Assembly (NCBI RefSeq): GCF_900113875.1
Contig: NZ_FORA01000002.1
Coordinates: 682,001 to 746,000 of the forward strand
Direction: 5' to 3'
From: Jannaschia pohangensis
GTDB taxonomy: Bacteria; Pseudomonadota; Alphaproteobacteria; Rhodobacterales; Rhodobacteraceae
DNA: 64,000 bases
The position numbers and the translations under genes are program-made. Shown in pieces: positions 19,322-64,000 of the stretch. Numbering within the stretch: position 1 is the first letter of the stretch; each line of letters starts with the position of its first letter. The notes beneath the pieces are model-generated. The model did not search any database. It saw only the letters and a program-made list of their open reading frames with translations, and had not been told where the DNA came from.

Positions 19322-19400
19322 GACTATCCTTGCAGATAAATGCCCTTCGTTGGGGAAGGGTGTCCCGCGGCCGTCGCTATTCCCATCCAAGGGGTCGCGC
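19322..19400 (-). promoter_or_regulatory. serC leader RNA with hairpins (serC-motif candidate)
   Basis: On the minus strand, right before the serC ribosome site, CCCTT and AAGGG pair around an eight-base loop (19343-19360). A GC-rich arm with CCGCGG precedes it. The layout, a stem ending a few bases before TGCAAGGA and the serC start, fits my memory of the serC motif, a structured RNA found upstream of serC in alphaproteobacteria. Motif identity was not tested by covariance search. Confidence 0.5.
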
Positions 19401-47111: not shown

Positions 47112-47137
47112 GGCAGCGTGGCGTCAGGTCGGAGAGG

Positions 47138-47184
47138 CTGGGGCGCTGCCCCAGACCCCGGAGTATTTCCGAAGCAGAGAAGGG
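47138..47184. repeat. Intergenic hairpin repeat, copy 2
   Basis: A perfect 7-bp stem (CTGGGGC paired with GCCCCAG, 47138-47154) is followed by a 29-base block at 47156-47184 that is nearly identical to copy 1. The stem sequence differs from copy 1 but stays fully paired, so structure seems conserved. It lies between imuB and dnaE2 inside the presumed SOS operon. Confidence 0.75.
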
Positions 47185-47200
47185 AAAACAGCCCCGTCCA

Positions 47201-49373: not shown

Positions 49374-49401
49374 GGGGCAGGACCACCGGGAATCGATCAG
49401 T

Positions 49402-49416
49402 GTTCCTGTTATGTTC
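49402..49416. promoter_or_regulatory. LexA (SOS) box for imuA-imuB-dnaE2
   Basis: GTTC-N7-GTTC, the direct-repeat LexA operator of alphaproteobacteria, is present without mismatch 28 bp before imuA. It fits known SOS control of this cassette. Confidence 0.9.
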
Positions 49417-49468
49417 TAGTTTTGAGTCGAATTTGTCGAGTCCCCTTTCGCGCCATCTGGCGCAAAGA

Positions 49469-50146
49469 TCAGGGCGTCAGACAGTCCGCGAGGGAATTGC
49501 CCAGGTTTTCCAACAACATCGGATAAAGGGTCGGACCCGAGGCCAGGGATGACCCAAGCGGATCCAGCACGCCGGAGCGGGCGGGCGTTCCGTCGACCAG
49601 GGTTTCGACCAGCGCCGTGTCGAACTGCGGCTCGGAAAAGACCCAGACCGCCTCGGAGGAGACGACCCTGTCGCGCAACTCCGACAAGCGGGCGGCAGAA
49701 GGGCGCACAGCGTCGCTCAGTGAAATCGCGCCCAGTCCGGGCAGGTCGAAGGCCGCTTGAAAATGGCCATAGGCGTCATGGAAAACGATGTGTCCTCGAC
49801 CCTGGACCGGCGCGAGACGGGCCTCGAGCTGCTGAACCAGAAAATCGATTTCGGCTTCGGCCGCATGGGCATTCGCATCGTAGATGACGGCATTGTCCGG
49901 GTCGACCTGCGACAGGGTTTCGGCAATCGCCGCAAGCCAGAGCTTGCCGTTTTCAAGGTCGAGCCAGCCGTGCGGATCGCCCTTGCCATACCCATGATCG
50001 TGGTCATGGTCGTCGCCGTCGTCATCGTCCCCAGATACGACAGGGAAATTCGTGCCCTCGATATCCAGCAGCTCGACGGTCACCGCATCCTCGGCCAGGT
50101 TTTCCACGGCGGTCTTCAACCAGGAGGTGAGCCCCTCGCCGACCCC
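49469..50146 (-). pseudogene. znuA: ZnuA zinc-binding protein, 5'-truncated
   Basis: The frame encodes about the C-terminal 225 residues of a periplasmic zinc-binding protein. GEGLTSWLKTAVENLAEDAV corresponds to the internal VGxxLTxWL region; an Asp/His-rich metal loop (GDDDDGDDHDHDHGYG) precedes DPHGWLDLENGKLWLAAIAE, then GHIVFHDAYGHFQAAFDLPG. The signal peptide and first lobe are missing, and upstream codons are unrelated (they read over zur and znuC fragments). The stop is at the normal end (SLADCLTP). It cannot be exported, so it is called non-functional. Confidence 0.85.
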
Positions 50147-50196
50147 GGTCCGGCGGCTGGTTCTGGAAATCCTGCTGGCGCGACACAGGGCGCTCG
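50147..50196 (+). pseudogene. zur: zur fragment (zinc uptake regulator)
   Basis: About 17 codons read LTP-like PTPVRRLVLEILLARHRALG, which match the start of the winged helix in Zur/Fur proteins. The N-terminus and everything after are lost. The right edge merges with znuC at a run of Gs. Short length limits certainty, but its place between znuA and znuC is where zur normally stands in roseobacters. Confidence 0.65.
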
Positions 50197-50480
50197 GGAA
50201 AATCGACGTTGCTGCGCGCGCTTCTGGGGGCGATCCGGACGGCAACGGGCTCTGCCGGCCTGAAGGTGAGCCACGAATTGCATATGGTGATGGCCGCGTC
50301 GGATCGGGTGATCTGCCTCAACGGACATGTCTGCTGCGAGGGGCACCCGGAACATGTGACCTCTGCCCCCGAATACCGGGCCTTGATCGGAACGGGCACC
50401 CAAGGGCCCTCGCGCTCTATCGTCACGAACACAGTCACGATCATCACGACCATTACCACGACGCAAAGACCGGCGCGTGA
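50197..50480 (+). pseudogene. znuC: ZnuC ATPase, deleted and frameshifted
   Basis: The piece starts inside Walker A at GKSTLLRALLGAIRTATG (50197 on), then jumps after GLKV to the C-terminal VSHELHMVMAASDRVICLNG and HVCCEGHPEHVTSAPEYRAL. Missing are the N-terminus and the region with the Q-loop, signature and Walker B. A one-base loss near 50405 shifts frame; the original His-rich tail ALALYRHEHSHDHHDHYHDA and KTGA ends at 50480 in another frame. It cannot be an ATPase. Confidence 0.85.
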
Positions 50481-51030
50481 CCATCCTCGACAATTCCTGA
50501 TCCGGGCGGCGCTTGCCGGTCTTGGGGTGGCCCTTGTGGCCCTGTCCTTCCTTCCGGGCGTGCGCGTCGACCTGACCAGCTATCTGTTCGGCGATATCCG
50601 TGCGGTCGGCCGCATCGACTTCCTGGTGATCTGGGGCGGCGCCGCCATCGTGCTCGCCCTGCTGGCCTGGCGGTGGTCTCGTTTGCTGACGGCCACGCTT
50701 GGCCCCGACGTCGCCCATGCGGCGGGTATCGATCCGCGGCGCAAAAAACTGGTCCTGACCATCGCCCTGGCACTTGTGGTCGCGGTCGCGATCAAGGTCG
50801 TCGGTGCCCTTCTGATCGGCGCCTTGCTCCTGATCCCGGCGGCAACGGCCCGGCACCTGTCACCGACACCCGAGGCAATGGCCTGTCTGGCCGCGACCAT
50901 CGGCGCGGCGGCGGCCCTTGGCGGCATCTGGATGTCCTGTCCCTTCGACACCCCCACCGGTCCCAGCATTGTTTGCATTGCGGCCCTTCTGTTTGCCGGG
51001 TCACTTGTGATTGGATCGCGGCACCGCTGA
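50477..51030 (+). pseudogene. znuB: ZnuB permease, frameshifted with internal deletion
   Basis: The old GTG start at 50477 overlaps the znuC stop (GTGA). It reads VTILDNS then a stop at 50498; a missing base there restores FLIRAALAGLGVALV. The next residues, ALSFLPGVRVDLTSYLFGDI, belong about 90 residues further on in ZnuB, so an internal deletion removed several membrane helices. The rest (VIWGGAAIVLALL, KVVGALLIGALLLIPAATAR, DTPTGPSIVC) is intact to 51030. Confidence 0.85.
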
Positions 51031-51045
51031 ACACCCGAGGGACCC

Positions 51046-51963
51046 ATGGCACAGACGACCCACGACGCGACCGAAGATACGCGCAATCGCGACATCAAGA
51101 TCTATGTGAACGGCGAACTGCTGCACCGGGACGACGCCAAGGTCTCGGTCTATGACAGCGGCTTCCTGCTGGGTGACGGCATGTGGGAGGGGATGCGGCT
51201 CTATGACGGAGTCTGGGCATTCTTCGACGAGCACATGGACCGGTTCTTCGAATCCTGCAAAGCCGTGTCTCTGGATATCGGCATGGACCGGGCCGGGATA
51301 CTGGATGCGCTGAACCGGACGGCGGCGGCAAACGGGATGGTGACGGATGTGCATTGCCGCCTGATGCTGACACGCGGCGTCAAGGTGAAGCCGTTCCAGC
51401 ACCCCTCGCTCAGCCGGTCCGGCCCCACGTTCGTCATCATCATGGAGCATTCAAAGCCCGTCGACGCGCTGCAATCGCGGGGCATCCGCCTTGCGACGGT
51501 GCCGCAGGTCCGCGGCCTGCCCATGAGCCAGGACGCGAAATACAACAGCCATTCCAAGCTCAATTGCGTCATCGCCTGCCTTCAGGCCGAGCAGGCCGGG
51601 GCGGACGAGGCCCTGATGCTCGACCCGCATGGCTTCGTGAACACGACCAACGCCTGCAATTTCTTCATCGTCCGCAAGGGCGAGGTTTGGACCTCGACCG
51701 GCGACTATTGCATGAACGGCGTCACCCGGCAGAAGGTCATCGACCTGTGCCACGCCAATGACATCGTCGTCCGGGAACGCAATTTCTCGCTCTTTGACAC
51801 CTATGGAGCGGACGAAGCCTTCCTGACCGGCACATTTGGGGCCCAGACCCCCGTGGCGGAGATCGACGGCAAGCCCATCGGAACCGGCGACCGCCCTGTC
51901 ACCGCCCTCTTGCGGGAGAGGTATCGCGCGCTTGTCGCGGATCATGTGCGACAGCGTCAGTGA
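51046..51963 (+). CDS. Class IV (D-amino acid/branched-chain) aminotransferase
   Basis: A 305-residue fold-type IV PLP enzyme. The N-terminus has VNGELLHRDDAKVSVYDSGF and LLGDGMWEGMR; the PLP lysine is expected in AKYNSHSKLNCVIACLQAEQ, and DEALMLDPHGFVNTTNACNF is the conserved glutamate/threonine region. It could be a D-alanine or branched-chain aminotransferase or an aminodeoxychorismate-lyase relative. ATG 51046 is preceded by CGAGGGACCC. It is 15 bp after the znuB remnant. Confidence 0.88.
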   Translation: MAQTTHDATEDTRNRDIKIYVNGELLHRDDAKVSVYDSGFLLGDGMWEGMRLYDGVWAFFDEHMDRFFESCKAVSLDIGMDRAGILDALNRTAAANGMVTDVHCRLMLTRGVKVKPFQHPSLSRSGPTFVIIMEHSKPVDALQSRGIRLATVPQVRGLPMSQDAKYNSHSKLNCVIACLQAEQAGADEALMLDPHGFVNTTNACNFFIVRKGEVWTSTGDYCMNGVTRQKVIDLCHANDIVVRERNFSLFDTYGADEAFLTGTFGAQTPVAEIDGKPIGTGDRPVTALLRERYRALVADHVRQRQ

Positions 51964-52013
51964 AATACTGCCCTGCGGGGGAACGAACCTTTTGTGTTCT
52001 GAGATTACGCCAT

Positions 52014-52036
52014 GCGGGCAGCGGGTGACCGCCCGC
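52014..52036. terminator. Hairpin after the class IV aminotransferase
   Basis: GCGGGC and GCCCGC pair around an 11-base loop about 50 bp past the stop. No T tract; candidate terminator. Confidence 0.35.
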
Positions 52037-52109
52037 CAGCAACAGGACCCTTGAACCGAGGCCGCCAAGCATCAAATCACGAGGTCACTGCAGTTCGAAT
52101 GGATATCAA

Positions 52110-52505
52110 ATGTTTGCTGTTGAAGTACGTGACCACGTCATGATCGCACATTCCCTGCCCTCGCCGGTGTTCGGTCCGGCGCAGGGAATGCACGGGGCCA
52201 CCTTCGTTGTCGATGCGGCCTTCTACACCGAGGATCTGGATGAAAACGGGCTGGTCGTGGACATGGGCCTCGCCACGAATGCGCTGGCCGAAGCCCTTGA
52301 ACCGCTCCGATATTCCAACCTGGACGATGTGCCCGCCTTCGCAGGCAAGATCACCACGACCGAATTCCTGTGTCACCACATCTGGTCCCTGCTGCGCGAT
52401 GCCGCCAAGACAACCGGTCTGGGCGACGGCGGTCGGCTGCGCCGCATCCGGGTCATGCTCCACGAAAGCCATGTGGCGCGCGGCTGGTACGAAGCAGACA
52501 TCTGA
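52110..52505 (+). CDS. 6-pyruvoyl-tetrahydropterin synthase/QueD-fold protein with altered active site
   Basis: A 131-residue T-fold protein of the PTPS/QueD family. Fold markers are IAHSLP (His14), GMHGATFVVDAAF (His28), VVDMGLATN, KITTTEFLCHHIWSLL and VMLHESHVARGWY. The usual CxxxHGH motif is AxxxHGA here: the catalytic Cys is Ala24 and one zinc His is Ala30. The LDHxxLN motif is LRYSNLD, so the catalytic His is also gone. It may bind a pterin-like compound without normal catalysis or do a new reaction. First gene of a seven-gene plus-strand cluster. Confidence 0.82.
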   Translation: MFAVEVRDHVMIAHSLPSPVFGPAQGMHGATFVVDAAFYTEDLDENGLVVDMGLATNALAEALEPLRYSNLDDVPAFAGKITTTEFLCHHIWSLLRDAAKTTGLGDGGRLRRIRVMLHESHVARGWYEADI

Positions 52506-52506
52506 C

Positions 52507-53280
52507 GTGGCCTTCACAGCCGATTGGTTGGCCTTGCGGGAGCCCGCAGACCTCGCCGCGCGGGACAGCACCCTTCTGACCCGCGCGGCCGAATGCGTCG
52601 CCTCAGGCAAAGTCGTTCTGGATCTGGGAAGCGGCACGGGGTCCACCCTGCGCGCGTTCGAGGCGCATGGGTTCACAGGCCTGTCGTGGCGTCTGTTCGA
52701 TAACGACCCAGGCCTTCTTGACGTGGCGGGCAAGCGGCATCCGGGCGCCGAACGGGTAACCGGGGATCTGGGCGATCTGGGTGCGCTCCCCCTGGGTGGC
52801 GTGGGCCTCGTCACGGCGTCGGCCTTGCTCGACCTGATGCCGCTGGATTGGGTCACCGACCTGGCGGCACGGCTCGATACCGCCGGCATCCCCTTCTACG
52901 CCGCGCTGAACTATGACGGCATCATGCATTGGGAGCCGGTGCTTCCGACCGACACGGATGTCACGACCCATTTCAATATGCACCAACGCGGCGACAAGGG
53001 CATCGGGGCGGCGCTCGGTCCCTCGTCAGGCGAAACATGCCGAAGGGTGTTTGGGGAACGCGGCTTTGACGTGACGACCGCCGACAGCCCATGGATCATC
53101 GACCCGGATCGGGCTCCCCTTCACGAGGCGCTGCTGCAAGGGATCGCCGGTGCCGCCGACGAGGCGGGTTGTGCGGTTGCCACGGACTGGTGCGCCGCCC
53201 GCATTGGCGCACTGCACGACAGTCGGGGGGTGATCGGGCACACCGACCTTCTGGCGATCCCGCGCGGAACCTCCGCATGA
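52507..53280 (+). CDS. SAM-dependent methyltransferase
   Basis: A 257-residue class I methyltransferase-like protein. SAM motif I is VVLDLGSGTGSTLRAFEAHG; the acidic residue follows in WRLFDNDPGLL; VGLVTASALLDLMPLDWVTD is motif IV/post-I-like. The second half (ALNYDGIMHWEPVLPTD, THFNMHQRGDKGIGAALGPS) reads as a substrate domain. GTG 52507 directly follows the PTPS stop at 52505, so they are coupled. Substrate unknown; position suggests a pterin- or pyrimidine-related intermediate. Confidence 0.8.
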   Translation: MAFTADWLALREPADLAARDSTLLTRAAECVASGKVVLDLGSGTGSTLRAFEAHGFTGLSWRLFDNDPGLLDVAGKRHPGAERVTGDLGDLGALPLGGVGLVTASALLDLMPLDWVTDLAARLDTAGIPFYAALNYDGIMHWEPVLPTDTDVTTHFNMHQRGDKGIGAALGPSSGETCRRVFGERGFDVTTADSPWIIDPDRAPLHEALLQGIAGAADEAGCAVATDWCAARIGALHDSRGVIGHTDLLAIPRGTSA

Positions 53281-53371
53281 CATTGCGAGTTTGCGATCTA
53301 GGTACACGGATAGTCAGCTGCGTGCGAAGCGTCACACAGCTTATGCGAAATGGCCCCCGTGGGAGAATGCA

Positions 53372-54187
53372 ATGCAGCTTGTCGATGTGACGCCACGCGT
53401 GTGGAGCAGGCTCCTTGCCGCAGGTGCGGGCAAGGCCTGCCTGTGCTGTGGCGACTGGACGGCAGGCGAGCGTCAGTCTCTGGCACTCTACGGACCGCTG
53501 GCCCAGCCTTCGGGTGGCACAATGGTTGTGGGGCAGATCGGTCAGTCGCTGGACGGGCGGATCGCCACGCAATCGGGCGACGCCCAGGATGTTTCGGGCC
53601 CGGACGGCCTTGCGCATCTGCACCGGTTGCGGGCGCTGTGCGACGCCGTTGTCATAGGGGTCAACACCGCGCTCCACGATAACCCACGTCTGACCGTGCG
53701 ACTGGCCGACGGACAAAATCCGGCCCGCGTGGTGATCGACCCCAAGGGTCGCCTGCCCTGGGACACGGGCCTGCTGCACGACGAAACCGCCCGATGCATT
53801 GTCATCCAGACCGTGGACGTGCCCCGTCCGGACGGGGTCGAGGTGATCCGCCTGCCCCAGACGGACTGGCTTTCGCCGCAGGACATCGTCGCCGCGCTCA
53901 GGGAGCAGGGGTTCAATCGGCTCTTGATCGAAGGCGGTGGCGTGACCATCGCGCGCTTTCTCGAGGCTGACATGCTGAACCGCCTGCACGTGGCCATCGC
54001 GCCGCTGCTGATCGGTGCGGGTCCCCAGGGCCTGACCACCAGTCCCGTGGCAACCCTGGCGCAGGCGCGCAGGCCCAGTACACAGGCCTATGGTCTCGGC
54101 TCGGATGTGGTGTTCGATTGCAGTCTCAGTCCCGGAGCCGCCCGGTCTCCGGTCTGCAACGCGGCGCTCGAAACAGCCGGCGAATAG
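53372..54187 (+). CDS. RibD C-terminal-domain reductase (no deaminase domain)
   Basis: A 271-residue protein with only the RibD_C/DHFR-like reductase domain after a 50-residue N-terminal segment. Motifs: VGQIGQSLDGRIATQSGD, LCDAVVIGVNTALHDNPRLT, RVVIDPKGRLP and LLIEGGGVTIARFLEADMLN. RibD_C uses NADPH to reduce the ribose of a 5-amino-pyrimidine. The cytidine-deaminase-like domain of RibD is missing. ATG 53372 follows GGGAGAATGCA. It lies between the methyltransferase and a RibA-like gene, so it probably works on the RibA product or a related compound. Confidence 0.85.
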   Translation: MQLVDVTPRVWSRLLAAGAGKACLCCGDWTAGERQSLALYGPLAQPSGGTMVVGQIGQSLDGRIATQSGDAQDVSGPDGLAHLHRLRALCDAVVIGVNTALHDNPRLTVRLADGQNPARVVIDPKGRLPWDTGLLHDETARCIVIQTVDVPRPDGVEVIRLPQTDWLSPQDIVAALREQGFNRLLIEGGGVTIARFLEADMLNRLHVAIAPLLIGAGPQGLTTSPVATLAQARRPSTQAYGLGSDVVFDCSLSPGAARSPVCNAALETAGE

Positions 54188-54256
54188 CGCCACCAGGGCT
54201 TGCCGCCTTCCGGCGGTGCCTCCCCCGAGATGATGACCCTTGCGAGGACTTCAAAC

Positions 54257-55375
54257 ATGCCATCACCCGCCAACGCCCTCGCGCCCACGCCCGCAGAGCG
54301 GCTGACCCGCATCCGCAGCGATCTGCGTATGGGCCTTCCGTGCCTGATCACACGGGGTACGCACCGGGCGATCCTCGTAGCCGTCGAGACCGTGTCACCG
54401 GAACGCTACGCCGGTCTGCATGCCCTGTGCGGCGCGCCAGAACTTGTCCTTGCGTCGAACCGGGCACGCGCCATCATGTCCGCCGCAGCCTCTGCCGATC
54501 TTGCGCATGAGCCGGTTCGCATCCGCCCGCCCGACGGCGCGGACATCGACTGGTTCCGCACGCTGAGCGATACGGCTTTCGACCAACAGGCCAACGCCCG
54601 GGGGCCGCTTCATGTGTTGCGCGACGGCGATCACGCTTTGGCGTCCTTTGCGCTGACGCTGGTGAAATCTGCAGAACTTCTGCCCTCGGCAGTCCTTTTC
54701 GCGGTTGCAGACGAGACCGTGCTGCCGGCCGAGCTTTCGCTGGCCTGCCTCGATGTGGCGGAAGGTGCCGCACTCGTCGCGGCACAGCCGACGCTTCATC
54801 CGGTCGCCGCCTCCGCCTTCCCGCTTCAGGCCGCAGACCGGGGGAGCCTTCACGTCTTTCGCGATCCGACCGGCAGATACGAGCACTACGCGCTGGAAAT
54901 CGGCGACCCGGACCGCAGCCAGCCTGTCCTGTCCCGATTGCATTCCGCCTGCTTTACCGGAGACGTGCTGGGCAGCCTCAAATGCGACTGCGGCCCGCAG
55001 CTTCAGGCCGCACTGGCGCAGATGGGGTCGGAGGGCGCAGGCGTGCTGCTCTATCTCAACCAGGAGGGTCGCGGGATCGGGTTGGCCAACAAGATGCGCG
55101 TCTACGATCTGCAATTGCAGGGCTTTGACACGGTCGAGGCGAACCATCGGCTTGGTTTCGAGGATGACGAACGCGATTTCCGCGTCGCCGCCGAGATGTT
55201 GCGCAGGCTCGGCTTCAGCGCCGCGCGCCTGCTGACCAACAACCCGAAAAAGACCGAAGTGTTTGAGATGCAGGGCATCGCAATCACCGAGCAGTTGCCG
55301 CTTCGCGTCGGAAGAAACATTCACAACAGCGGCTACCTCTCCGTCAAGGCGCTTAAATCCGGACATGCGCTTTGA
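54257..55375 (+). CDS. ribA: GTP cyclohydrolase II with extra N-terminal domain
   Basis: A 372-residue protein. The C-terminal half is a full GTP cyclohydrolase II: zinc cysteines 232, 243 and 245 in CFTGDVLGSLKCDCGPQ, catalytic LLYLNQEGRGIGLANKM, then RLGFEDDERDF and LLTNNPKKTEVF. It opens GTP to a diamino-ribosylamino-pyrimidinone. The N-terminal 190 residues (RIRSDLRMGLPCLITRG) look like a decayed RibB-type domain with no clear catalytic acids. ATG 54257 was chosen for the GAGG nine bases upstream. Its stop overlaps the dehydrogenase start (TTGA). Confidence 0.88.
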   Translation: MPSPANALAPTPAERLTRIRSDLRMGLPCLITRGTHRAILVAVETVSPERYAGLHALCGAPELVLASNRARAIMSAAASADLAHEPVRIRPPDGADIDWFRTLSDTAFDQQANARGPLHVLRDGDHALASFALTLVKSAELLPSAVLFAVADETVLPAELSLACLDVAEGAALVAAQPTLHPVAASAFPLQAADRGSLHVFRDPTGRYEHYALEIGDPDRSQPVLSRLHSACFTGDVLGSLKCDCGPQLQAALAQMGSEGAGVLLYLNQEGRGIGLANKMRVYDLQLQGFDTVEANHRLGFEDDERDFRVAAEMLRRLGFSAARLLTNNPKKTEVFEMQGIAITEQLPLRVGRNIHNSGYLSVKALKSGHAL

Positions 55376-56337
55376 CAGGGGAAACACGCGCCGCGCAGGC
55401 GCTCTGGATCGCCGCGCCGAAGCAGGCAGAATTGCGCGACGTCCAGTTTGACGTGCCGGACGGCCACGTCGTGATCGACACAATGTTCACCGGCATCAGT
55501 CGCGGCACGGAGCGCCTGGTATTCGAGGGTCGGGTCCCCGAAAGCGAGAACCAGACCATGCGCGCACCGTTTCAGGAGGGCGAATTTCCCGGCCCGGTGA
55601 AATACGGATACGCCGGCGTCGGGCGGATTGCGCAGAGCGATGACATCGTCTTTGCGCTCTTTCCGCATCAGACAGCTTTCGCCATTCCGCCCGAAGCCGC
55701 CGTCCCCGTCCCGCCGACTGTTCCGGCCGAACGTGCGGTGCTGGCGGCGAACATGGAAACGGCGCTCAACATCCTGTGGGATGCGGGCGTCCAGCCCGGT
55801 GACCGGGTGGCCATCGTCGGCTCCGGCGTCGTCGGGGCTCTGGTCGGCTACCTCTCTGCGCGGATCCCGGGAACCGAGGTGTGCCTGATCGACATAGTCC
55901 CGGGTCGCGCCGCGCTCGCCGATGCGCTCGGCTGCGACTTCGCAGAACCGCAGGCGGCCGGCGGCGATGCCGACGTGGTGATCCATGCCTCGGCCACAGC
56001 CGCGGGACTGGCTACCGCAATCTCTCTGGCTGGTCTCGAGGCCGCAATCGTCGAAGCGAGCTGGTACGGCACCGGCACCGTCGATGCACCTCTCGGCGGG
56101 CGTTTTCACCAGCGCCGCCTGCGCCTCGTCGGCTCGCAGGTCGGGCGCATCCCGCCCAGCCACGCCGCACGCTGGACCTATCGTCGCCGTCTGCAAAAGG
56201 CGCTCGACCTGTTGGCCGATCCGGCGCTCGATGTTCTGATTTCGGGCGAAACGCAGTTCACCGACCTCGTGCGTCGCTATGAAGGGATCCTGGCGGACCC
56301 GGCTACCTTGTGCCACCGCGTCCGGTTCGGGGGGTGA
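55372..56337 (+). CDS. Zinc-type (MDR) alcohol dehydrogenase-like protein
   Basis: A 321-residue medium-chain dehydrogenase. The GroES-like part has FTGISRGTERLVFEGRVPES and GPVKYGYAGVGRI; the Rossmann loop is VAIVGSGVVGALVGYLSARI. The usual catalytic-zinc cysteine before GT is replaced by arginine/serine (ISRGTE), as in BchC-like relatives, so zinc use is doubtful. It probably oxidises or reduces a sugar-type alcohol with NAD(P). The TTG start at 55372 overlaps the RibA stop, tying it to that gene. Confidence 0.82.
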   Translation: MTGETRAAQALWIAAPKQAELRDVQFDVPDGHVVIDTMFTGISRGTERLVFEGRVPESENQTMRAPFQEGEFPGPVKYGYAGVGRIAQSDDIVFALFPHQTAFAIPPEAAVPVPPTVPAERAVLAANMETALNILWDAGVQPGDRVAIVGSGVVGALVGYLSARIPGTEVCLIDIVPGRAALADALGCDFAEPQAAGGDADVVIHASATAAGLATAISLAGLEAAIVEASWYGTGTVDAPLGGRFHQRRLRLVGSQVGRIPPSHAARWTYRRRLQKALDLLADPALDVLISGETQFTDLVRRYEGILADPATLCHRVRFGG

Positions 56338-56338
56338 C

Positions 56339-57184
56339 GTGACCCAGACCGTCGACGCCGTTCTCCCGGACACCGTCTCCGACAGGCTTCGCGTCATGGT
56401 CGACGCCGCGCATCGCGCGGGCGCCCTCCTGCTGGGTGCCGCGCAAGGCCGCCATACCCTGCGCATCGATGAAAAGACCGCAGGCGATTTCGTGTCCGAC
56501 GCCGACCGCGCGGCCGAGGCGCTGATCGCCGATGATCTGGGCAACGCCTTTCCCGAATACGGCTGGCTGGGCGAGGAAAGCGGCCTGCGCCCTGCCAGTG
56601 CCGGGAACACCCTGACCTGGGTCGTCGACCCGCTCGACGGGACGACAAATTTTCTGAAGGGCCTGCCGCATTGGGCCGTGTCCATCGCCCTGTGCGATGG
56701 CGAAGACATCCTGTGTGCCGTGGTCCATGATCCGGCCAAGACCGAAACCTTCGTCGCCGAAAAGGGCCGTGGCGCATATCTCAACGGCAGGCCCATCGCC
56801 GTCTCGGAGGGTATTTCGCTTCAGGCAGCGCTCTTTGCCACCGGGGTGCCCGCGGGCGGGCGCGTCACCTATCTGAACGATTGCCTGGGCGATCTGGAAC
56901 GCCTCATGCCGAAGACCGCCGGCATACGCCGTTGGGGGGCCGCCGCGCTCGACCTTGCCTATGTCGCTGCCGGTCGGATCGACGGATATTGGGAACGCAA
57001 TCTCGGCCCCTGGGACGTGGCGGCCGGGATCCTGCTGGTCACCGAGGCTGGCGGCACCGTCAGCCGCTTGTGGCCCGGGCGAAGCGTCCTGTCCTGCGGA
57101 TCGTTCATCGCAGCCAATGCAGCTCTCGGACCAGAGCTTGCTGCAATGATCGGCACGCGCGAGGAACACCATGACCGGGACTAG
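56339..57184 (+). CDS. Inositol monophosphatase/CysQ family phosphatase
   Basis: A 281-residue lithium-sensitive-type phosphatase. Metal motifs are all present: DFVSDADRAAEALI, WLGEESG (Glu79, Glu80), WVVDPLDGTTNFLKGLPHWA (Asp97, Asp100) and NLGPWDVAAGILLVTEAGG. It removes phosphate from a sugar or nucleotide alcohol. The GTG at 56339 begins one base after the dehydrogenase stop. In this cluster it could dephosphorylate a ribityl-type intermediate, an inference. Its end overlaps the glycosyltransferase start by 14 bases. Confidence 0.9.
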   Translation: MTQTVDAVLPDTVSDRLRVMVDAAHRAGALLLGAAQGRHTLRIDEKTAGDFVSDADRAAEALIADDLGNAFPEYGWLGEESGLRPASAGNTLTWVVDPLDGTTNFLKGLPHWAVSIALCDGEDILCAVVHDPAKTETFVAEKGRGAYLNGRPIAVSEGISLQAALFATGVPAGGRVTYLNDCLGDLERLMPKTAGIRRWGAAALDLAYVAAGRIDGYWERNLGPWDVAAGILLVTEAGGTVSRLWPGRSVLSCGSFIAANAALGPELAAMIGTREEHHDRD

Positions 57185-58241
57185 CACCGTCGCCTTCGCC
57201 GTACCCGGCGACATTCACGCGCTGACCGGCGGCTACATCTACGACTTCAAGCTGATGACTGCGCTTGCTGCCACCGGCCTTGACGTGCGGCACCTGGAAT
57301 GGGGCGACAGCTTTCCCCATCCGACGCCGATGGATGCGGAACAGGCCATGGACCAGCTCCGAACGCTCGGGCCCGATCAGGCCGCGCTGATCGACGGTCT
57401 GGCCTACGGCGCGCTGGACACTGCTGAACTGAGCACCGTCACTGCAAGGCTGTTCGCGCTCGTCCACCATCCGCTGGCGCTTGAACCCGGTCTGGAGCCC
57501 GAAGTGGCCGACCGCATGGCCGCGCGGGAACGGGCCAACCTCGGCCTTGCGCGCCATATTTTCGTGACCAGCCCGCACACCGGCGACATGCTGCGTCGAC
57601 ATTACGGCGTCGCACCGGACCGGGTGACCGTGGTGAAGCCCGGATTCGGCCCGCCCAACGATACGCTAACCCAAAAGGCCGATCCCCCGCTCATCCTGTC
57701 GGTCGGACTGCTCGCCCGGCGCAAGGGTCACGATATCCTGCTCCGTGCGCTTGCCCGGATCGCCGACCTCGACTGGCAGGCAGATATCGTCGGGCGCGAC
57801 CACGAGGCCGGGATGACGGCCACTCTCACCGCTCTGATCAGTGATCTGGGTCTGTCCAAGCGGGTCCGCCTGTCGGGAGAGGTCAGCGATCAGGCGCTTC
57901 ATGAACGCTATGGCCGCGCCACCGTCTTCGCGCTCGCCACCCGGTACGAGGGTTATGGGATCGTCTTCGGAGAGGCGATGGGTCACGGTCTGCCGATCGT
58001 GACGACCCGTGCCGGGGCCGTTCCGGAAACTGTCGGCAGCGGGCCGGGCCTGCTGGTCGACCCCGACGATGCCGAAGCCTTTGCCGGTGCCCTGCGCCGG
58101 ATGCTGACGGAGCCCGAGATGCGCAGCAAGTGTGCCCGCGCCAGTCTGCGCGCCGCGTCGGGCCTGACCAGCTGGGCCGAGTCAGCCGCCCTTGTGCGCG
58201 ACACCATCATCCATATCGACGATCTGGCCCGCGGTCGCTGA
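57171..58241 (+). CDS. Glycosyltransferase family 4 protein
   Basis: A 356-residue GT-B enzyme. N-terminal domain: FAVPGDIHALTGGYIYDFKL; C-terminal donor domain: PPLILSVGLLARRKGHDILL, RVRLSGEVSDQALHERYGRA and the EX7E block RYEGYGIVFGEAMGHGLPIV. It transfers a sugar from an activated donor at the cytoplasmic side. The 14-bp overlap with the phosphatase gene shows coupling. It is the last of the seven plus-strand genes and overlaps the opposing flippase-like gene by 60 bp. Acceptor unknown; the cluster suggests a GTP-derived heterocycle or a lipid. Confidence 0.88.
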   Translation: MTGTSTVAFAVPGDIHALTGGYIYDFKLMTALAATGLDVRHLEWGDSFPHPTPMDAEQAMDQLRTLGPDQAALIDGLAYGALDTAELSTVTARLFALVHHPLALEPGLEPEVADRMAARERANLGLARHIFVTSPHTGDMLRRHYGVAPDRVTVVKPGFGPPNDTLTQKADPPLILSVGLLARRKGHDILLRALARIADLDWQADIVGRDHEAGMTATLTALISDLGLSKRVRLSGEVSDQALHERYGRATVFALATRYEGYGIVFGEAMGHGLPIVTTRAGAVPETVGSGPGLLVDPDDAEAFAGALRRMLTEPEMRSKCARASLRAASGLTSWAESAALVRDTIIHIDDLARGR

Positions 58242-59159
58242 CGCCGCGGATTTCCTTGACCCCGACCGGGCGCGGAGCGGGACCAGAACCCCCGGAAGAC
58301 AGGCAATCATCAGCGCAAGGCCATAGGCGGCCCCCGCCGCCACGCCCGCACTGGCCGATGCCCCGATAATCGGAAAGAGCGCGGCGGCAGCGCCTTCGCG
58401 CAGGCCCCAGCCACCCACCGACACCGGGATCATCATCGCCGTCAGGATCAGGGGGACGAGGATCAGCGCGGCCTCGCCTGCCATCGCTGTCCCCGTCGCC
58501 CGCGCGCAGGCCCAGAAGGCCACGATCATGAGCACCGCGATCGCCAGTGAAAGCGCGAGTTGCCACAGCACCACCGCAGGCGCCAGAAATGCCGCCTCGA
58601 GCGATGCCCGGAACTGCGCCACCGGACCGAGCCGTCGAAGGATCGGCCCGACGACGACCGCGATCAACACAAGGACGAGGCCGACCCAGAGCGCGCCTTG
58701 GACCAGCCAAGCGGGCCAATCGACACCCCCGGGCACAAGCGCCCAGGCAACCCCGAACGTCCCGATGGCCAGGACCCCGACCTGTCCGGCCAAACGCTCG
58801 ATCATCACCGCATGGGCTGCACGGGTCAGATCGACCCCGCCGCGCGGCGTGCGCCATGCGCGCCCCGCATCGCCCAGCATGCCGCCCGGCAGACACAGGT
58901 TGACCAGTTGCGACAGATAGTATTCCCGCACCGCCCAACCAAACCCGAATGTCGCGCCGAGGCGCTGCGCCGTGAGCCTCCATCGCCACGCCATCAGAAC
59001 CGTCACCAGCGTGAAGCACCCCACCGCCAGAGCCAACCAGCGCAGGTCCATCCCGCGCAAGCGTGCGTAGGCCTCGGGCGCGTCGACGATCCACGCCAGC
59101 CCCGCCAGTATGGCGAGCGACACGACAAGTCGCAGCGCATATCCGGCGTACCGCTTCAC
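58182..59159 (-). CDS. Lysylphosphatidylglycerol-synthase TM-region (flippase-like) membrane protein
   Basis: A 325-residue integral membrane protein with about eight helices of the UPF0104/LPG_synthase_TM type. Markers are SQLVNLCLPGGMLGDAGRAW, AAHAVMIERLAGQVGVLAIG and ILTAMMIPVSVGGWGLREGA. Such domains flip lipids or glycolipids, as the N-terminal half of MprF does. GTG 59159 overlaps the sulfatase-family stop as GTGA. It is the last gene of a minus-strand unit. Confidence 0.87.
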   Translation of the reverse strand: MKRYAGYALRLVVSLAILAGLAWIVDAPEAYARLRGMDLRWLALAVGCFTLVTVLMAWRWRLTAQRLGATFGFGWAVREYYLSQLVNLCLPGGMLGDAGRAWRTPRGGVDLTRAAHAVMIERLAGQVGVLAIGTFGVAWALVPGGVDWPAWLVQGALWVGLVLVLIAVVVGPILRRLGPVAQFRASLEAAFLAPAVVLWQLALSLAIAVLMIVAFWACARATGTAMAGEAALILVPLILTAMMIPVSVGGWGLREGAAAALFPIIGASASAGVAAGAAYGLALMIACLPGVLVPLRARSGSRKSAASATAGQIVDMDDGVAHKGG

Positions 59160-60787
59160 ATCGCTTCTCGATCCGCCGCAGCCGTCGTGAAGGCGCGGAT
59201 AAAGCGGTCGCGAAAGACCTCCATCGGCCAGACCGGCGTGTCCGCGCCGGGGACGAGCCCGTCGCGCCAGTTCCAATCCGATGCAAGCGCCACCAGATCC
59301 GGGGGCCCGATCAGATGCACGGCAACGTCGCGGCTGTCGATCCCGGCGACAAAGCCCGCCGGCTGGTGATCGCCCAGAATGATGAACAGCGGCTGATCCG
59401 CGCGCCGCGCGGCATAGGACATCGCCGCCTGCAGGGTGTAGTCGATGGCCTGGCGATATTGGTCGCGAACCCGATCACGGTCGCGCCAGACCACCGACGG
59501 CGGGTCACCCGACGTCGCCCATCGGTCGAATGCCGTCCCGTCGCCCACATCTTCCCAGTCGATCATTTCAGGCACCGGCACCCATGGGGCGTGGGATGAA
59601 ATCAATGCGATCTGCAGGAAATCCGGGCGCGGATCAGGTGGCAGAAGCGCGTCGAAGGCCGACAGGGTGTATTGATCCGGCATCGTGATCCAGTTGAAAG
59701 GCGCGCCTGCGTAGTTCAGATCCGCCGCCGCCAGGATCGTGTCGAACCCCATGGTCAACCCTTCGGGCCAGGCCAGCGTAATCGCCGGCATCACCGCGGC
59801 CGTCCGAAACCCCGAGGTCTGGGCCAGATGAAACAGACTTTGCCGCCCCGATGCGAGCATCGCGCCATAGCGACCCTGATCCGAGGTCCGCAGACCCGAC
59901 GCCAAGGTGCCATGCGCCAGCCAGCTTTGCCCCCCTGCGGTCGGCGAGTTCAGCCAACCGCTCTGCATCGCGTAACCCGCGTCGCTCAGGGCGACTTCGG
60001 CGTTGCGCAGGGTCGGCACATGGGTTTCGGAATAGAGCAGGTTGTCGAAGCTGGATCGTCCATAGCTTTCGATGAAGATCACGATGACATCTCGTCCGTC
60101 CACAGCATCGAACAGGCCGGTTCTGTCGGCGTAGGGATCCTGCGCCGCCGCCAGGCGAAATGCCCGCAGATCGCGCAAGACCGTGACGCTACGCTCCAGT
60201 TGCGCGCGCACCGTGCGAATGTTGGAGACCGCGCCCGGCGGATCGACCGCACCTTGCCAAAGTCGCAACGTCGGCCCGAAATCCGCCGTCATCAGGGCCA
60301 GGGCAGCGACCAGGCCGCCGCCCATCCAGGGCCGAAAGTGCGGTGCAAGATCGATCCGCAGCAGGCACATCAGCGCCCGATACAGGATCAGGCCAATGGC
60401 TGCGAAGGCGATGACGCTTGCGATCACGGCCACCACGGTCAGGGGCATCCCGATACTTCCCGACAGGACGTTCAGGCCCGCCTCGATCAGAAACATGTCG
60501 ACAACAGGACTGAACCGCCGGTTGAGCGACGACAGCATCGCGATATCCGCCCCTTTCAACAGCAGCAGTACCAGGATCACCCCGGTCAGGATTCCGGCAA
60601 TCGCCGACCGCCCGCGCCACTGCGGCGGCCAGAGGACGAGCGCCAGGATCAGGACGGGCCATTCCAGCGGAACCTGCGCGAAGAGGTCGCCCAGACCGCC
60701 CGGTTTGTCGGGCAACGCCAGCAGCAGGTACAAGACCCCCGCCGCCAACGCAGGTCGCGCCCATTGTCGCAAATCGGGTCGGATCAT
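59156..60787 (-). CDS. Sulfatase/phosphoethanolamine-transferase superfamily membrane enzyme
   Basis: A 543-residue protein. The first 180 residues hold four or five membrane helices (GVLYLLLALPDKPGG, IAGILTGVILVLLLLKG, VVAVIASVIAFAAIGLILYR); the rest is an alkaline-phosphatase-fold domain facing the periplasm. DVIVIFIESYGRSSFDNLL is the first metal site, TAGGQSWLAHGTLASGLRTS the nucleophile region, and PLFIILGDHQPAGFV the second metal site. It resembles LtaS/EptA enzymes that move phospho-head groups. The start overlaps the CDP-alcohol transferase stop (ATGA). Confidence 0.87.
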   Translation of the reverse strand: MIRPDLRQWARPALAAGVLYLLLALPDKPGGLGDLFAQVPLEWPVLILALVLWPPQWRGRSAIAGILTGVILVLLLLKGADIAMLSSLNRRFSPVVDMFLIEAGLNVLSGSIGMPLTVVAVIASVIAFAAIGLILYRALMCLLRIDLAPHFRPWMGGGLVAALALMTADFGPTLRLWQGAVDPPGAVSNIRTVRAQLERSVTVLRDLRAFRLAAAQDPYADRTGLFDAVDGRDVIVIFIESYGRSSFDNLLYSETHVPTLRNAEVALSDAGYAMQSGWLNSPTAGGQSWLAHGTLASGLRTSDQGRYGAMLASGRQSLFHLAQTSGFRTAAVMPAITLAWPEGLTMGFDTILAAADLNYAGAPFNWITMPDQYTLSAFDALLPPDPRPDFLQIALISSHAPWVPVPEMIDWEDVGDGTAFDRWATSGDPPSVVWRDRDRVRDQYRQAIDYTLQAAMSYAARRADQPLFIILGDHQPAGFVAGIDSRDVAVHLIGPPDLVALASDWNWRDGLVPGADTPVWPMEVFRDRFIRAFTTAAADREAM

Positions 60788-61542
60788 CGACGGGCCGCCA
60801 GATAGAGAACATCGCGTCCGAAAGACCACGTCAGCAGGCCCGCCGCGCCCAGAGAGATCACCTTGGCCAACAGCGGCGGCAGGCCCGGCAGAACCAGCAC
60901 GCACAGCGCGCCGATCTGCAGCACGCAGACGACCTTGCGACCAAACCTTTCCGGAAGCGGGGCACGCAGCCAGGTCAACCAGATGCCGGCAAGCAGAAAG
61001 GCATAGCGGCTGAACCCGAGGATCAGGACCTCGATGCCGACACGCCCGGCCATCAGCAGGATCAGCGACAACATGCAGGCCAGCGCCGCGTCCACTTCCA
61101 TGTCGAAACGTGCGCCGAACGCCGTCGACAGACCATTGCGACGGGCCAGCCATCCGTCCAACCCGTCCAGCGACAACGCCAGAACCGCAATGCCGAACAC
61201 CGCATAGCCCATCTGCGTCAGCATCCCGGCCCGCAACAAAGCGACAGACAACACGCAGAGCAGGGCGAGGCGCAGAAACGTGATCGAATTGGGGGCCCCG
61301 AATGTGCGGTGCGGATATCCCAGCGGCCCCATTGCCCAGAGGGCGACAGCGCCGCTCAGCCCGAACAGGCCGGTTGCCAGAGCGGCGGCGAGTGACCCGC
61401 TCAGCGGGTCAAACGGACCGCTCAGGACGAAGACGAGACATCCGAGGATCAACCACAACACGCCGCCCTGCACTTGCGCACGGCTCACCGAAGGGCGCGG
61501 CATGCCCTGGGCTTTTGGGAGCGGGAGAATGTCGTTGGTCAT
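60784..61542 (-). CDS. CDP-alcohol phosphatidyltransferase family protein
   Basis: A 252-residue membrane protein with about six helices. The full catalytic motif DGLDGWLARRNGLSTAFGAR followed by FDMEVD (the four Asp and two Gly of the CDP-OH-P family) is intact. Such enzymes join a CDP-linked lipid or alcohol to a second alcohol. GAPNSITFLRLALL is the usual entry to the first helix. It precedes the sulfatase-like and flippase-like genes with four-base overlaps, making a lipid-type head-group operon. Confidence 0.9.
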   Translation of the reverse strand: MTNDILPLPKAQGMPRPSVSRAQVQGGVLWLILGCLVFVLSGPFDPLSGSLAAALATGLFGLSGAVALWAMGPLGYPHRTFGAPNSITFLRLALLCVLSVALLRAGMLTQMGYAVFGIAVLALSLDGLDGWLARRNGLSTAFGARFDMEVDAALACMLSLILLMAGRVGIEVLILGFSRYAFLLAGIWLTWLRAPLPERFGRKVVCVLQIGALCVLVLPGLPPLLAKVISLGAAGLLTWSFGRDVLYLAARR

Positions 61543-61601
61543 GGAACGAACCTAGGCGGCGCATGATGATGTCAAGCGTCACCGGTGACACAACAGCGTG
61601 T

Positions 61602-62363
61602 CTACGTCGACCCGCACGTAGTGGCGCTGATCCGGGCGCTTACCGGCCGATGATCCGAGGCCGCGCGGATGGTCGCGCTGTCGAGCGCCCGCAGATCCGT
61701 AGGGTCCGGTCCTTCGTCCACCAGGATACGATCCAGCGGCAGCATGGGCCGCCCGACGGGAAAGCTGGCGACCACCCCGCCCCGGAGCTTCGAGCCAAAG
61801 AAACGCGGTGACAATGCCAGCCCGCCCCAGGGACGCCATTCGTTGAGATCCCCCAGCAGTACCGTGCGCATCCGGGCATGGCGTGCGATGTGCTGGCCCA
61901 GTGTCCGCATCTGCACAACGCGCAACCACTGCGCCAGGGAAAGATGGGTGGCGATGATCCGCAAGTCCCTGCCGTCGCGACGTGTCTCGGCCACGACTGC
62001 GCCGCGCGGATAGTGGCCCGGCAGGTCGACAAGGCTCAGACGTGTAATCTCGAAACTCGGATGAACGAACAGAAGGCTTCCCAGGAAGCCGTGACTCCTG
62101 GGCCCCCACCGCGCGTCCTGGGGGCCATGGATCCATCGCAAGCCGGTCGTGGCCTCGATCCTCTCCAGATCGAGAAATCCGCCATAGGGCGGGTCCTCGT
62201 CATCCGCTTCCTGCAGGGCCAGGATATCCGGCTCGGTGGCGGCAATGTCCTGTGCGATCACATCCGCGATCCGCCTTGGATCGACCGGACCACGAGCGCC
62301 CCGCCCACGGTGAATATTCCAGCTCACGCAGCCGTAGCTGCGCGCGGTGTCGGCTCTTGTCAT
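61602..62363 (-). CDS. Endonuclease/exonuclease/phosphatase (EEP) family protein
   Basis: A 253-residue EEP-fold hydrolase. Catalytic motifs: SWNIHRGRGARG, ILALQEADDED, LRIIATHLSL, VLLGDLNEW and ASDHRPVSARI, covering the Asn, Glu, His, Asp/Asn and terminal Asp/His. The family contains nucleases and phospholipid or inositol-phosphate phosphatases; next to a CDP-alcohol transferase a phosphodiesterase or lipid phosphatase role is plausible. It is 59 bp upstream of that gene on the same strand. No signal peptide. Confidence 0.88.
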   Translation of the reverse strand: MTRADTARSYGCVSWNIHRGRGARGPVDPRRIADVIAQDIAATEPDILALQEADDEDPPYGGFLDLERIEATTGLRWIHGPQDARWGPRSHGFLGSLLFVHPSFEITRLSLVDLPGHYPRGAVVAETRRDGRDLRIIATHLSLAQWLRVVQMRTLGQHIARHARMRTVLLGDLNEWRPWGGLALSPRFFGSKLRGGVVASFPVGRPMLPLDRILVDEGPDPTDLRALDSATIRAASDHRPVSARISATTCGST

Positions 62364-62505
62364 GGGTGTCCTGAACTCTCGGGCGACCCCGCCACCATCT
62401 GCGAGCCGCTCCAGACTGACAAGGCAGGCGCGACAACTTGCCCTCGGGTGGGTTCAGCTTAGTTTCATCGCTATCGCCTTCCGAACCAACCGAAAGGAAT
62501 TCCCC

Positions 62506-63090
62506 GTGTCCCGTGTCCTTCCCTGTGCTGCCCTCTGTGCCTTGATCGGGTTCCCCGCCGTCGCCGAACCTCATCGGTACGAGCTTGATCCCGCCCACAC
62601 CACGGTCGCCTTCACCGTTCAACACCTGGGCTTTGCCGACACTCTTGGCCTGTTCGGAGAAGTGTCAGGCAGTTTCGTCTATGACATGGAAACGCAGGAG
62701 CTGTCGGATGTCTCGGTCACCGTCACCTCCGCCAGCCTGAACACCCTGAACGAGGCACGTGACCAGCATGTCAGGAGCGGCGATTTCCTGGCCGTCGATG
62801 CGCACCCCCAGATCACGTTCACCGCACAGAGCGGCGAGGCCATCGACGACACATCCGGCACCGTGACGGGCGATCTGACGATCCTCGGCGAAACGCGTCC
62901 ATTGACGCTGGACGTTTCGCTGGTCGGTGAGGGTGAGTATCCGTTCGGGCACAAGCGCTTCGTCCTCGGCCTATCCGCCCGTGGCAGCCTCATGCGCAGT
63001 GACTTCGGCATGACCTACGGCGTCGACAATGGCCTTGTCGGAGACGAGGTGGAACTGCTGATCGAAGCCGAGGCAATGCGGATGGAGTGA
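62506..63090 (+). CDS. YceI family periplasmic protein
   Basis: A 194-residue exported lipocalin-like protein. Signal peptide: LPCAALCALIGFPAVAEPH, cleavage expected after VAE or AVA. The mature domain has YELDPAHTTVAFTVQHLGFA, LNEARDQHVRSGDFLAVDAH and LGETRPLTLDVSL, all YceI hallmarks. Members bind polyisoprenoids or quinone-like lipids in the periplasm. GTG 62506 follows GAAAGGAATTCCCC. It is divergent from the EEP gene. Confidence 0.9.
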   Translation: MSRVLPCAALCALIGFPAVAEPHRYELDPAHTTVAFTVQHLGFADTLGLFGEVSGSFVYDMETQELSDVSVTVTSASLNTLNEARDQHVRSGDFLAVDAHPQITFTAQSGEAIDDTSGTVTGDLTILGETRPLTLDVSLVGEGEYPFGHKRFVLGLSARGSLMRSDFGMTYGVDNGLVGDEVELLIEAEAMRME

Positions 63091-63147
63091 CCAACTCCGC
63101 CGCCCGCCAGTGGAGGTATGTGTCTGGCGTTGCAGAAGAACACGGTG

Positions 63148-63255
63148 CCCAGCTTCTTGCGCATGCCAGACTATTCCACGCTGTGTCTCAGACAGTTGAG
63201 GCTGGCCATTCGATCCCCGTCCAGCCGTGTCAAAGGCCGACTGAACGTTTTGATT
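63148..63255 (+). pseudogene. IS5-family transposase remnant, central segment
   Basis: A short stretch reads PSFLRMPDYSTLCLRQLRLA and SSRVKGRLNVLI, which fits the central part of IS5-family transposases (usual form W.VPDYSTLCRRQ...GPLNVLID). It is cut off on both sides and in opposite orientation to the N-terminal remnant at 63405-63530. Confidence 0.65.
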
Positions 63256-63404
63256 CCCTTTCGGGGGTTCTGGGACAAGCGCTGCGGCGATACCTTGATG
63301 GCAGCGTGCGATATCTGTGAGGTCATTTCCATGGCGTCGTCCAAGGTTCCGGAGTTTCTGCTTGAAGTGATCCCGCATGCGGTCAGCCGAGGGCCACGCT
63401 TGCC

Positions 63405-63530
63405 TTATGGCGAGGCTTCCCAGGTCATCTCGGGGTCAAACCAAATCGTCAGCGAGCCTCGGCGCTTGAGCGCTTCAGTGTAGGCCGGCCAGGTCCTGGT
63501 CTTGTAGGTCGGGGAAGTTGGCCTGCTCAT
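63405..63530 (-). pseudogene. IS5-family transposase remnant, N-terminal segment
   Basis: Starting at ATG 63530 the frame reads MSRPTSPTYKTRTWPAYTEA and LKRRGSLTIWFDPEMTWEAS, the N-terminus of IS5-family transposases. It ends at an early stop at 63405; past the stop GKRGP continues the family pattern for a few residues and is then lost. Only 41 codons remain. Confidence 0.8.
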
Positions 63531-63573
63531 GCATCAGAATTACCATGCTCGATCAACGAGATGGAACCCCGAC

Positions 63574-63593
63574 GGGATTTGTGCAACAGAGCC
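63574..63593. mobile_element. IS terminal inverted-repeat end
   Basis: On the minus strand GGCTCTGTTGCACAAATCCC precedes the transposase N-terminus by about 43 bp, the right place and style for an IS5-group terminal repeat. The matching other end was not found in the window. Confidence 0.55.
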
Positions 63594-64000
63594 CCTCTGT
63601 ATCGAACTCAAGCTCAGGCACTTGCAGTGTGACAATGGATGGCTCGCCCACATCCTCTGGAAGCGAGCGACGTTGCGGGCACGCGCTATGGGCATTTATT
63701 TGCACCAGTCGTTCAGCGCCATGCACACCCAATCAGAGCCCTCAGCCAGGACGTCATGCCCAACCCGGCGCTTTCCATCGGTCCGATCGGATCGCACCAA
63801 GCCAGCCCGGGCAGCGCCAGAAGGTCAGGAGGTCGAAGTCACAAGCTTTGGCGTCCGCATCAGCTTGCGAGGCCGATACCTTCGCGGCGAAGCCATCGTC
63901 TGTGCGTCTGCGCCTTGGGAGCCGTCGAGATGCAGATTCTCCCCGTTGGTGGATCGATTGCGGGTGGCCTTGCGGTCGATCGTCGAGTGGTGCGACCGAA
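63594..64000. other. Gene-free stretch at the window end
   Basis: About 400 bp beyond the IS end with no recognisable intact gene on either strand. Both strands show only short, interrupted frames, in keeping with decayed or rearranged DNA. It could contain the edge of a gene that continues outside the window. Confidence 0.4.

Follow-up and report, generated by a model that had tools for sequence, protein, structure and literature searches.

Eleven genes, A to K, lie in a 64,000-nucleotide stretch of the Jannaschia pohangensis genome (contig NZ_FORA01000002.1, positions 682,001 to 746,000; hereafter the window), and we put at about one half the probability that they serve a dedicated pathway for a small GTP-derived compound of the cell envelope, which would be made or imported, glycosylated, linked to a lipid, flipped and transferred. 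Four of the genes, encoding a PTPS-fold protein (A), a methyltransferase (B), an MDR dehydrogenase (E) and a GT4 glycosyltransferase (G), form the conserved core of the locus. Beside them stand a RibD_C-type reductase (C), a GTP cyclohydrolase II (GCHII) paralogue (D), an IMPase-type phosphatase (F) and four genes on the other strand, among which H, I and J encode a flippase-like protein, a sulfatase-superfamily membrane enzyme and a CDP-alcohol phosphatidyltransferase (Table 1). G is common to the synthesis and import variants of the locus.

Conserved core and the make-or-import partition

A search with A, as an eight-row alignment, returned at least 583 confirmed related stretches, and PTPS-IV-like genes of this kind are therefore widespread. 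The best 80 stretches, fetched with flanks of up to 10 kb, were joined with 7 loci from the window's family (Rhodobacteraceae) and 10 plasmid loci, and the resulting 97 loci were scored with profiles; for the plasmids, 12 of 20 matches were picked by hand and fetched. Counts over the 97 loci are not frequencies in nature, since the best 80 were retrieved with query rows of the window's own family and short contigs are among them. A occurs in 97 loci, B and E in 90 each, G in 84 and C in 64, followed by J (37), D (34), I (31), H (30), F (19), K (4) and a YceI-family gene next to K (4). A, B, E and G are all present in 76 of the 97 loci, one of them on a Streptomyces plasmid, a grouping beyond chance. 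In Palleronia pelagia DSM 26893 (L029), the locus shows A–J. Furthermore, among 100 genomes of the window's family, A and B are confined to the identical eight, on separate contigs in one of these (G083). This neighbourhood, in which riboflavin-type enzymes are joined to glycosyl and lipid enzymes, is thus conserved in related genomes; a lack of such conservation would have refuted the original prediction. Outside the 97, a Streptomyces globisporus plasmid locus (L115) holds J, E, A, G, B, H, C, a creatininase-family gene and D, and another Streptomyces plasmid locus (L116) holds A only, by annotation.

The second line of evidence is the partition of G between two kinds of partner. In the family sample, a strong match to the substrate-binding protein of an ABC importer was found in 9 of the 100 genomes, the cut-off being placed in the gap between E values of 1.5e-139 and 2.1e-88; weaker matches, in G048 (a second copy), G024 and the A genome G083 (32% identity), were left uncounted. 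G was found in 15 genomes at E ≤ 1e-40: seven carry A, nine carry the importer, one of these carries both and none carries neither, and no genome with a strong importer match lacks G. In the genome with both (G063), the binding-protein match is interrupted by a stop and the permease is split in two, as sequencing errors could also bring about. The eighth A genome of the family (G008) also has a GT4 gene beside A, at 36% and below the cut-off used for G. The six importer-linked G rows, in a tree of 87, nest within the Rhodobacterales portion of the A-linked ones; they form two groups of three with a starred branch between, and one of the six is that of G063. Since importer and G are adjacent, part of this pattern is to be expected, and the telling point is the choice of partner, either A–E or the importer.

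The importer has three components: a binding protein of the NMT1/THI5 type (for example L140:11456–12457), an ATPase, and an SsuC/TauC-like permease of 529 aa with two domains. It resembles the RibXY and ThiXYZ importers in the types of its binding protein and permease and differs from them in the two-domain form of the permease. An excerpt of PMC4418817 places RibY in COG0715, a versatile family for whose members riboflavin, thiamine or methionine is suggested case by case. A pyrimidine-type compound is a plausible substrate for the importer, as a guess from sequence similarity.

The lipid-type genes seem to belong with the A pathway. Among 385 alphaproteobacterial genomes, A was found in 45, I in 25 and both in 23 (Fisher P = 1.9e-22, with ancestry ignored and the window's own genome among the 23). 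Of the 23 pairs, 6 lie within 20 kb, 4 farther apart on the same contig and 13 on different contigs. Ten genomes of the family sample have I and lack A; their I loci contain J in nine cases, cytochrome b561 in nine, H in eight, and the importer described above in seven. K was found in three of the ten (near J–I in L135, L137 and L138), with one weak match (L140), and also in L145; an MdoH-like gene was found in four, with one weak match. J and H also occur in actinobacterial clusters, J including those on Streptomyces and Microbacterium plasmids.

The proteins encoded by J and I retain motifs of their families. The CDP-alcohol phosphatidyltransferase motif, D..DG..AR(8-9)G...D...D, is intact in 37 of 38 J rows, the exception being L066, and the metal-site GDH motif of I is present in all 31 rows. 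The AlphaFold model of I (pLDDT 90.7) has a membrane-anchored sulfatase fold, for which the best Foldseek matches are LtaP, LtaS, MCR-1, PbgA and GacH, with lipoteichoic acid synthases, MCR-1 and GacH at modest TM values of 0.31–0.44 of the query; a phmmer search of I against solved chains gave no match at E ≤ 1. The family named for I in the original prediction stands (PF00884), and the model brings its fold nearest to lipoteichoic acid synthases, MCR-1 and GacH. Several of the five matched proteins take head groups from phospholipids.

Residues lost and kept in A, C, D and E

The sequence FGPAQ is present in 97 of 98 aligned A rows, including the window protein. In an excerpt of PMC5445326 (AGeNNT), FGPAQ is given as the signature of PTPS-IV, a subfamily of COG0720, and the neighbourhood of PTPS-IV genes is said to contain PF00925 and PF01872. 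A belongs to this published orphan subfamily. Both neighbouring families are present in the window, and recur as C in 64 and as D in 34 of the 97 loci.

The PTPS fold predicted for A is supported by its Pfam match, and the catalytic residues of PTPS are replaced. In alignment with PTPS (1b66), from which we take residue roles and numbering to carry over, all 98 A rows have alanine at the place of the catalytic cysteine (Cys42), alanine at the place of the third zinc histidine and tyrosine at the place of the catalytic histidine; the other two zinc histidines are retained, as is, in all 98 rows, the pterin-anchoring glutamate (Glu119). With alanine at the cysteine place, A contains neither form of the PTPS cysteine motif (CxxxHGH or CxxxxxHGH). 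These losses speak against the name 6-carboxytetrahydropterin synthase, which A bears in nine of nine annotated plasmid loci. The solved chain nearest to A by sequence is SCO6650 of Streptomyces coelicolor (3d7j, E 3e-35), which, as Spoonamore reportedly found in 2008, is without the zinc and the catalytic triad and performs no PTPS reaction. SCO6650, the closest solved relative of A, differs in being actinobacterial, and Streptomyces plasmid loci were compared here instead. SCO6655 is given as a GTP cyclohydrolase II in an excerpt of PMC2853524.

The window copy of D retains the zinc cysteine triad and Tyr105 of GCHII; over 35 GCHII rows, Tyr105 is present in 34 and each zinc cysteine in 34 or 35. 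C matches PF01872 with E 6.8e-39 and has conserved DGR, AT and EGG columns, and the solved chain nearest to it by sequence is 6p8c, named 2,5-diamino-6-ribosylamino-pyrimidinone phosphate reductase. The retained pterin-binding fold and glutamate of A would also suit a pathway to an unusual reduced pterin, in which GTP cyclohydrolase I would supply dihydropterins to A and C, with GCHII as a mere helper, and RibD_C enzymes can resemble pterin reductases. We consider this unlikely, given that the PTPS cysteine, the catalytic histidine and one zinc histidine are gone from every A row and that the recurrent cyclohydrolase is a GCHII with its residues kept as above. GTP cyclohydrolase I is named in none of the nine annotated plasmid loci, where annotation is incomplete and no search was aimed at this enzyme.

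Homology to RibA and RibD could also mean that D and C are surplus genes of riboflavin synthesis that ended up in an operon for the envelope, which we regard as very unlikely. The N-terminal deaminase domain, present in the genome's other RibD, is absent from C. The genome has, apart from the cluster, that RibD, RibH (lumazine synthase), 3,4-dihydroxy-2-butanone 4-phosphate (DHBP) synthase and another GCHII, these being the riboflavin genes searched for. About 400 kb of the same contig separate the cluster from DHBP synthase and lumazine synthase, neither of which was found alongside it. Ordinary riboflavin synthesis is therefore unlikely to be the cluster's job, let alone its sole purpose, as the original prediction held, and the cluster's ribA- and ribD-type genes are not the only ones of the strain. 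Furthermore, in the D tree, in which the genome's other GCHII (L020) is the sole non-cluster full-length row, the window copy branches apart from L020 and groups with cluster copies of G063, Roseovarius, Sulfitobacter and Puniceibacterium (support 100/100). Near L020 stand some of the remaining cluster copies, and D may therefore have been recruited repeatedly. The DHBP synthase of the genome (L021:4543–6156; C15 near 326560) is a fusion with a GCHII domain whose match is broken in two; the GCHII half of this fusion is probably degenerate.

A variant entry to the pathway is suggested by two GCHII-bearing Streptomyces plasmid loci, L105 and L115, which have methionine at the Tyr105 place (in L115 as judged by eye) and a creatininase-family gene nearby. 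GCHIIs with methionine at this place form FAPy, as reportedly established by Spoonamore in 2006. FAPy is in turn deformylated by ArfB, which is related to creatininase. By analogy, a methionine-type GCHII with a creatininase-like enzyme would reach the same diaminopyrimidine, which we offer as a lead.

B, whose Pfam score is below the cut-off, is predicted to have a methyltransferase fold from an AlphaFold model (mean pLDDT 97.5) whose Foldseek matches are methyltransferases. In E, an MDR dehydrogenase with a bchC match below the cut-off, the sequence SRGTE, present in 86–88 of 89 rows, sits where alcohol dehydrogenases (ADHs) presumably carry a zinc ligand. The richest cysteine column of E reaches 64 of 89 rows and none reaches 93%, the other ligand places not having been aligned to ADHs.

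Cofactor F420 synthesis also draws on the RibD product, and a role of the cluster in F420 synthesis was considered for this reason among others. CofH lies about 9 kb from a PTPS-IV gene in two genomes (G344:C10 and G424:C132), and an excerpt of PMC5041015 links PTPS-IV to F420 synthesis, from unpublished work; the two are perhaps connected. CofH scores over the cut-off in only 8 of 52 A-bearing genomes and in none of the eight A genomes of the family, one of which is the window's own. This makes an F420 role unlikely; for the window's genome it seems to be refuted already, barring a non-homologous Fo synthase, and overall we hold it to be extremely improbable.

All eleven reading frames, seven on the plus and four on the minus strand, are open as predicted, and the two sets converge tail to tail between G and H. 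Spacing is tight except beside C, where starts of 53372 for C and 54233 for D would leave gaps of 91 and 45 bases. Judged by start codons, D and E, J and I, and I and H may each overlap by 4 bases, and F and G overlap by 14; the 4-base overlaps would allow coupling of J, I and H, and likewise of D and E. K is an accessory at most, and membership of the YceI-family gene is doubtful. An aminotransferase gene upstream (51046–51963) was ruled out as a member, being near A in only 1 of 87 loci. Elsewhere in the window, a serC leader RNA was found on the minus strand at 19319–19370 (66.5 bits).

Table 1. Genes of the locus, in window positions
Gene	Assignment	Positions	Strand	Basis
A	PTPS-fold protein, subfamily PTPS-IV (FGPAQ)	52110..52505	+	PF01242
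B	Class I S-adenosylmethionine-dependent methyltransferase (predicted), GTG start	52507..53280	+	AlphaFold and Foldseek
C	RibD_C-type reductase, no deaminase domain	53372..54187	+	PF01872
D	GTP cyclohydrolase II paralogue; possible starts 54200, 54230, 54233	54233..55375	+	PF00925
E	MDR dehydrogenase, BchC-like, SRGTE motif	55372..56337	+	no Pfam match; sole NCBIfam match bchC, below cut-off
F	IMPase-type phosphatase; start ATG 56279 or GTG 56339	56279..57184	+	PF00459 (Inositol_P)
G	GT4 glycosyltransferase	57171..58241	+	PF00534 (Glycos_transf_1)
H	Flippase-like membrane protein (LPG_synthase_TM); frame open to 59276	58182..59159	-	PF03706
I	Membrane-anchored sulfatase-superfamily enzyme; frame open to 61153	59156..60787	-	PF00884
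J	CDP-alcohol phosphatidyltransferase (CDP-OH_P_transf), motif intact	60784..61542	-	PF01066
K	Endonuclease/exonuclease/phosphatase-family hydrolase (Exo_endo_phos)	61602..62363	-	PF03372
	YceI-family protein, neighbour of K (frame limits)	62347..63090	+	PF04264

De novo clustering of neighbouring open reading frames yielded many antisense shadow frames, and only profile-confirmed families were kept; ABC ATPase matches, in 40 of the 97 loci, were discarded as generic. The families that recur near A are cytochrome b561 (36 loci, for example L110:12011–12544), an FkbM-type methyltransferase (35; L112:5981–6706), an MdoH-like glucosyltransferase (35; L109:6079–7881), PfkB (7) and creatininase (3). 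The b561 and FkbM profiles gave no match in window positions 44111–64000. One locus labelled Aquiluna (Actinomycetota; L048) holds a Rhodobacterales-like cluster whose G falls within the Rhodobacterales clade; it is likely a mislabelled or mixed metagenome-assembled genome, or a recent transfer.

A putative pathway and the evidence against it

In the scheme that we infer, including all its reactions, their order and the link to lipid, D would open GTP to 2,5-diamino-6-ribosylamino-pyrimidinone phosphate, and C would reduce the ribosyl to a ribityl group. C would do so with no deamination, so that the guanine-like 2-amino-4-oxo face would survive. The phosphate would be removed by F or by a housekeeping enzyme. 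A, a T-fold protein with the anchoring glutamate and no PTPS chemistry, would then act with E and B in tailoring the ring or the side chain, E potentially oxidising a hydroxyl and B methylating, and G would attach a sugar. J would join the glycosylated product to phosphatidate, H would flip the resulting lipid, and I would take it as its donor on the outside, much in the way that LtaS or EptA-type enzymes take ordinary phospholipids. Some relatives, which are without A–E, would import the compound through the NMT1/THI5-type ABC transporter encoded beside G or J–I–H.

A more specific version, possible rather than probable, is that the locus specifies a new class of membrane lipid in at least two phyla. 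This would be a phosphatidyl-linked, glycosylated and methylated N-ribityl diaminopyrimidine or pteridine made from GTP, flipped and passed to an acceptor in the envelope, with some relatives having exchanged synthesis of the head group for its import, which would imply that it is shared between cells.

Several observations weigh against a single pathway of this kind. The pyrimidine origin rests on a subset of loci, with D in the fetched flanks of 34 of the 97 and C in those of 64. A creatininase-family gene is also found in alphaproteobacterial loci with a tyrosine-type GCHII (L077) or with no GCHII found (L098), and the Streptomyces creatininase-family gene scores best as MftE and weakly against ArfB. 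A stands without the cluster on three Streptomyces plasmids (L106, L107 and, by annotation, L116). The profiles of B and I were built solely from A-bearing loci, which favours A-linked members, and the I profile still found A-less copies. In the 385 class genomes no match to the importer reached E ≤ 1e-60, so that the make-or-import test rests on the 100 family genomes; the importer's ATPase and permease have their best scores with nitrate/sulfonate types. I is absent from 22 of the 45 class A genomes and from five of the eight family A genomes; two class genomes have I without A, and three family genomes have I with neither A nor the importer. I occurs in 13 of the 100 family genomes, three of them with A, and its association with A alone is not significant there (Fisher P = 0.07, again with ancestry ignored and the window's own genome included). 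Because the contigs are drafts, some of the class pairs of A and I on different contigs may in fact be neighbours. Finally, the MdoH-like gene stands without I in 32 of the 97 loci and with it in 3, and stands with I in at least four of the ten A-less I loci. The presence of the MdoH-like gene where I is mostly missing suggests a different final acceptor for this second configuration.

In a separate context for the PTPS-IV family, the genes on the three cluster-less plasmids lie near cupin, metallo-β-lactamase-fold, MEKHLA or discoidin genes.

Alternatively, two separate systems may lie next to each other: the product of A–G would be a soluble pyrimidine or pteridine, glycosylated and methylated, that stays in the cell or leaves it, and J–I–H–K would provide the envelope with a head group unrelated to this product. 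We see this as a possibility on the doubtful side. It would account for the ten family genomes with I and no A, for the 58 of 97 A loci with no J, I or H in their flanks, and for the 32 loci with the MdoH-like gene and no I. However, seven of the ten A-less I genomes of the family carry the importer together with G, 23 of the 25 class genomes with I also have A, 17 of these not within 20 kb in the assembly, and J and H are found within clusters of another phylum. We thus prefer the single pathway, at the even odds stated above.

Relation to known systems and significance

The bacterial riboflavin pathway uses a GCHII and a RibD reductase to which D and C are homologous, with the catalytic residues kept in D; it differs in that C of the window is without a deaminase domain and that RibD, RibH and DHBP synthase lie elsewhere. 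Toxoflavin clusters likewise recruit GCHII, RibD-type enzymes and a methyltransferase for a non-vitamin product; to our knowledge, they contain no GT4, PTPS-IV, CDP-alcohol transferase or flippase. The phospho-head-group transferases LtaS, GacH and MCR-1/EptC share the fold and the GDH motif with I, which differs in that phmmer reached no solved chain and in that PbgA/YejM, of the inner membrane, is also among its fold matches.

The locus had been described as undescribed-looking, which holds in part. The PTPS-IV neighbourhood with PF00925 and PF01872 and the FGPAQ signature are published, although the excerpt of PMC5445326, which labels PF00925 as GTP cyclohydrolase I/FolE2, makes no mention of links to GT4, MDR, methyltransferase, lipid or importer genes. 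Already known, then, are the PTPS-IV/RibA/RibD neighbourhood and biosynthetic loci that recruit riboflavin enzymes. In the open literature, mostly without subscription papers, no recognised account of the pathway was found, nor were the core with MDR, GT4 and methyltransferase genes, its tie to the lipid module or the make-or-import partition.

If the proposed pathway is correct, the widespread orphan family PTPS-IV would gain a pathway, and envelope lipids would gain a head group derived from a purine. The choice between making and importing would point to a shared metabolite, and the ligand of the importer in genomes without A would be the product of A–E, offering a direct bioassay for it.

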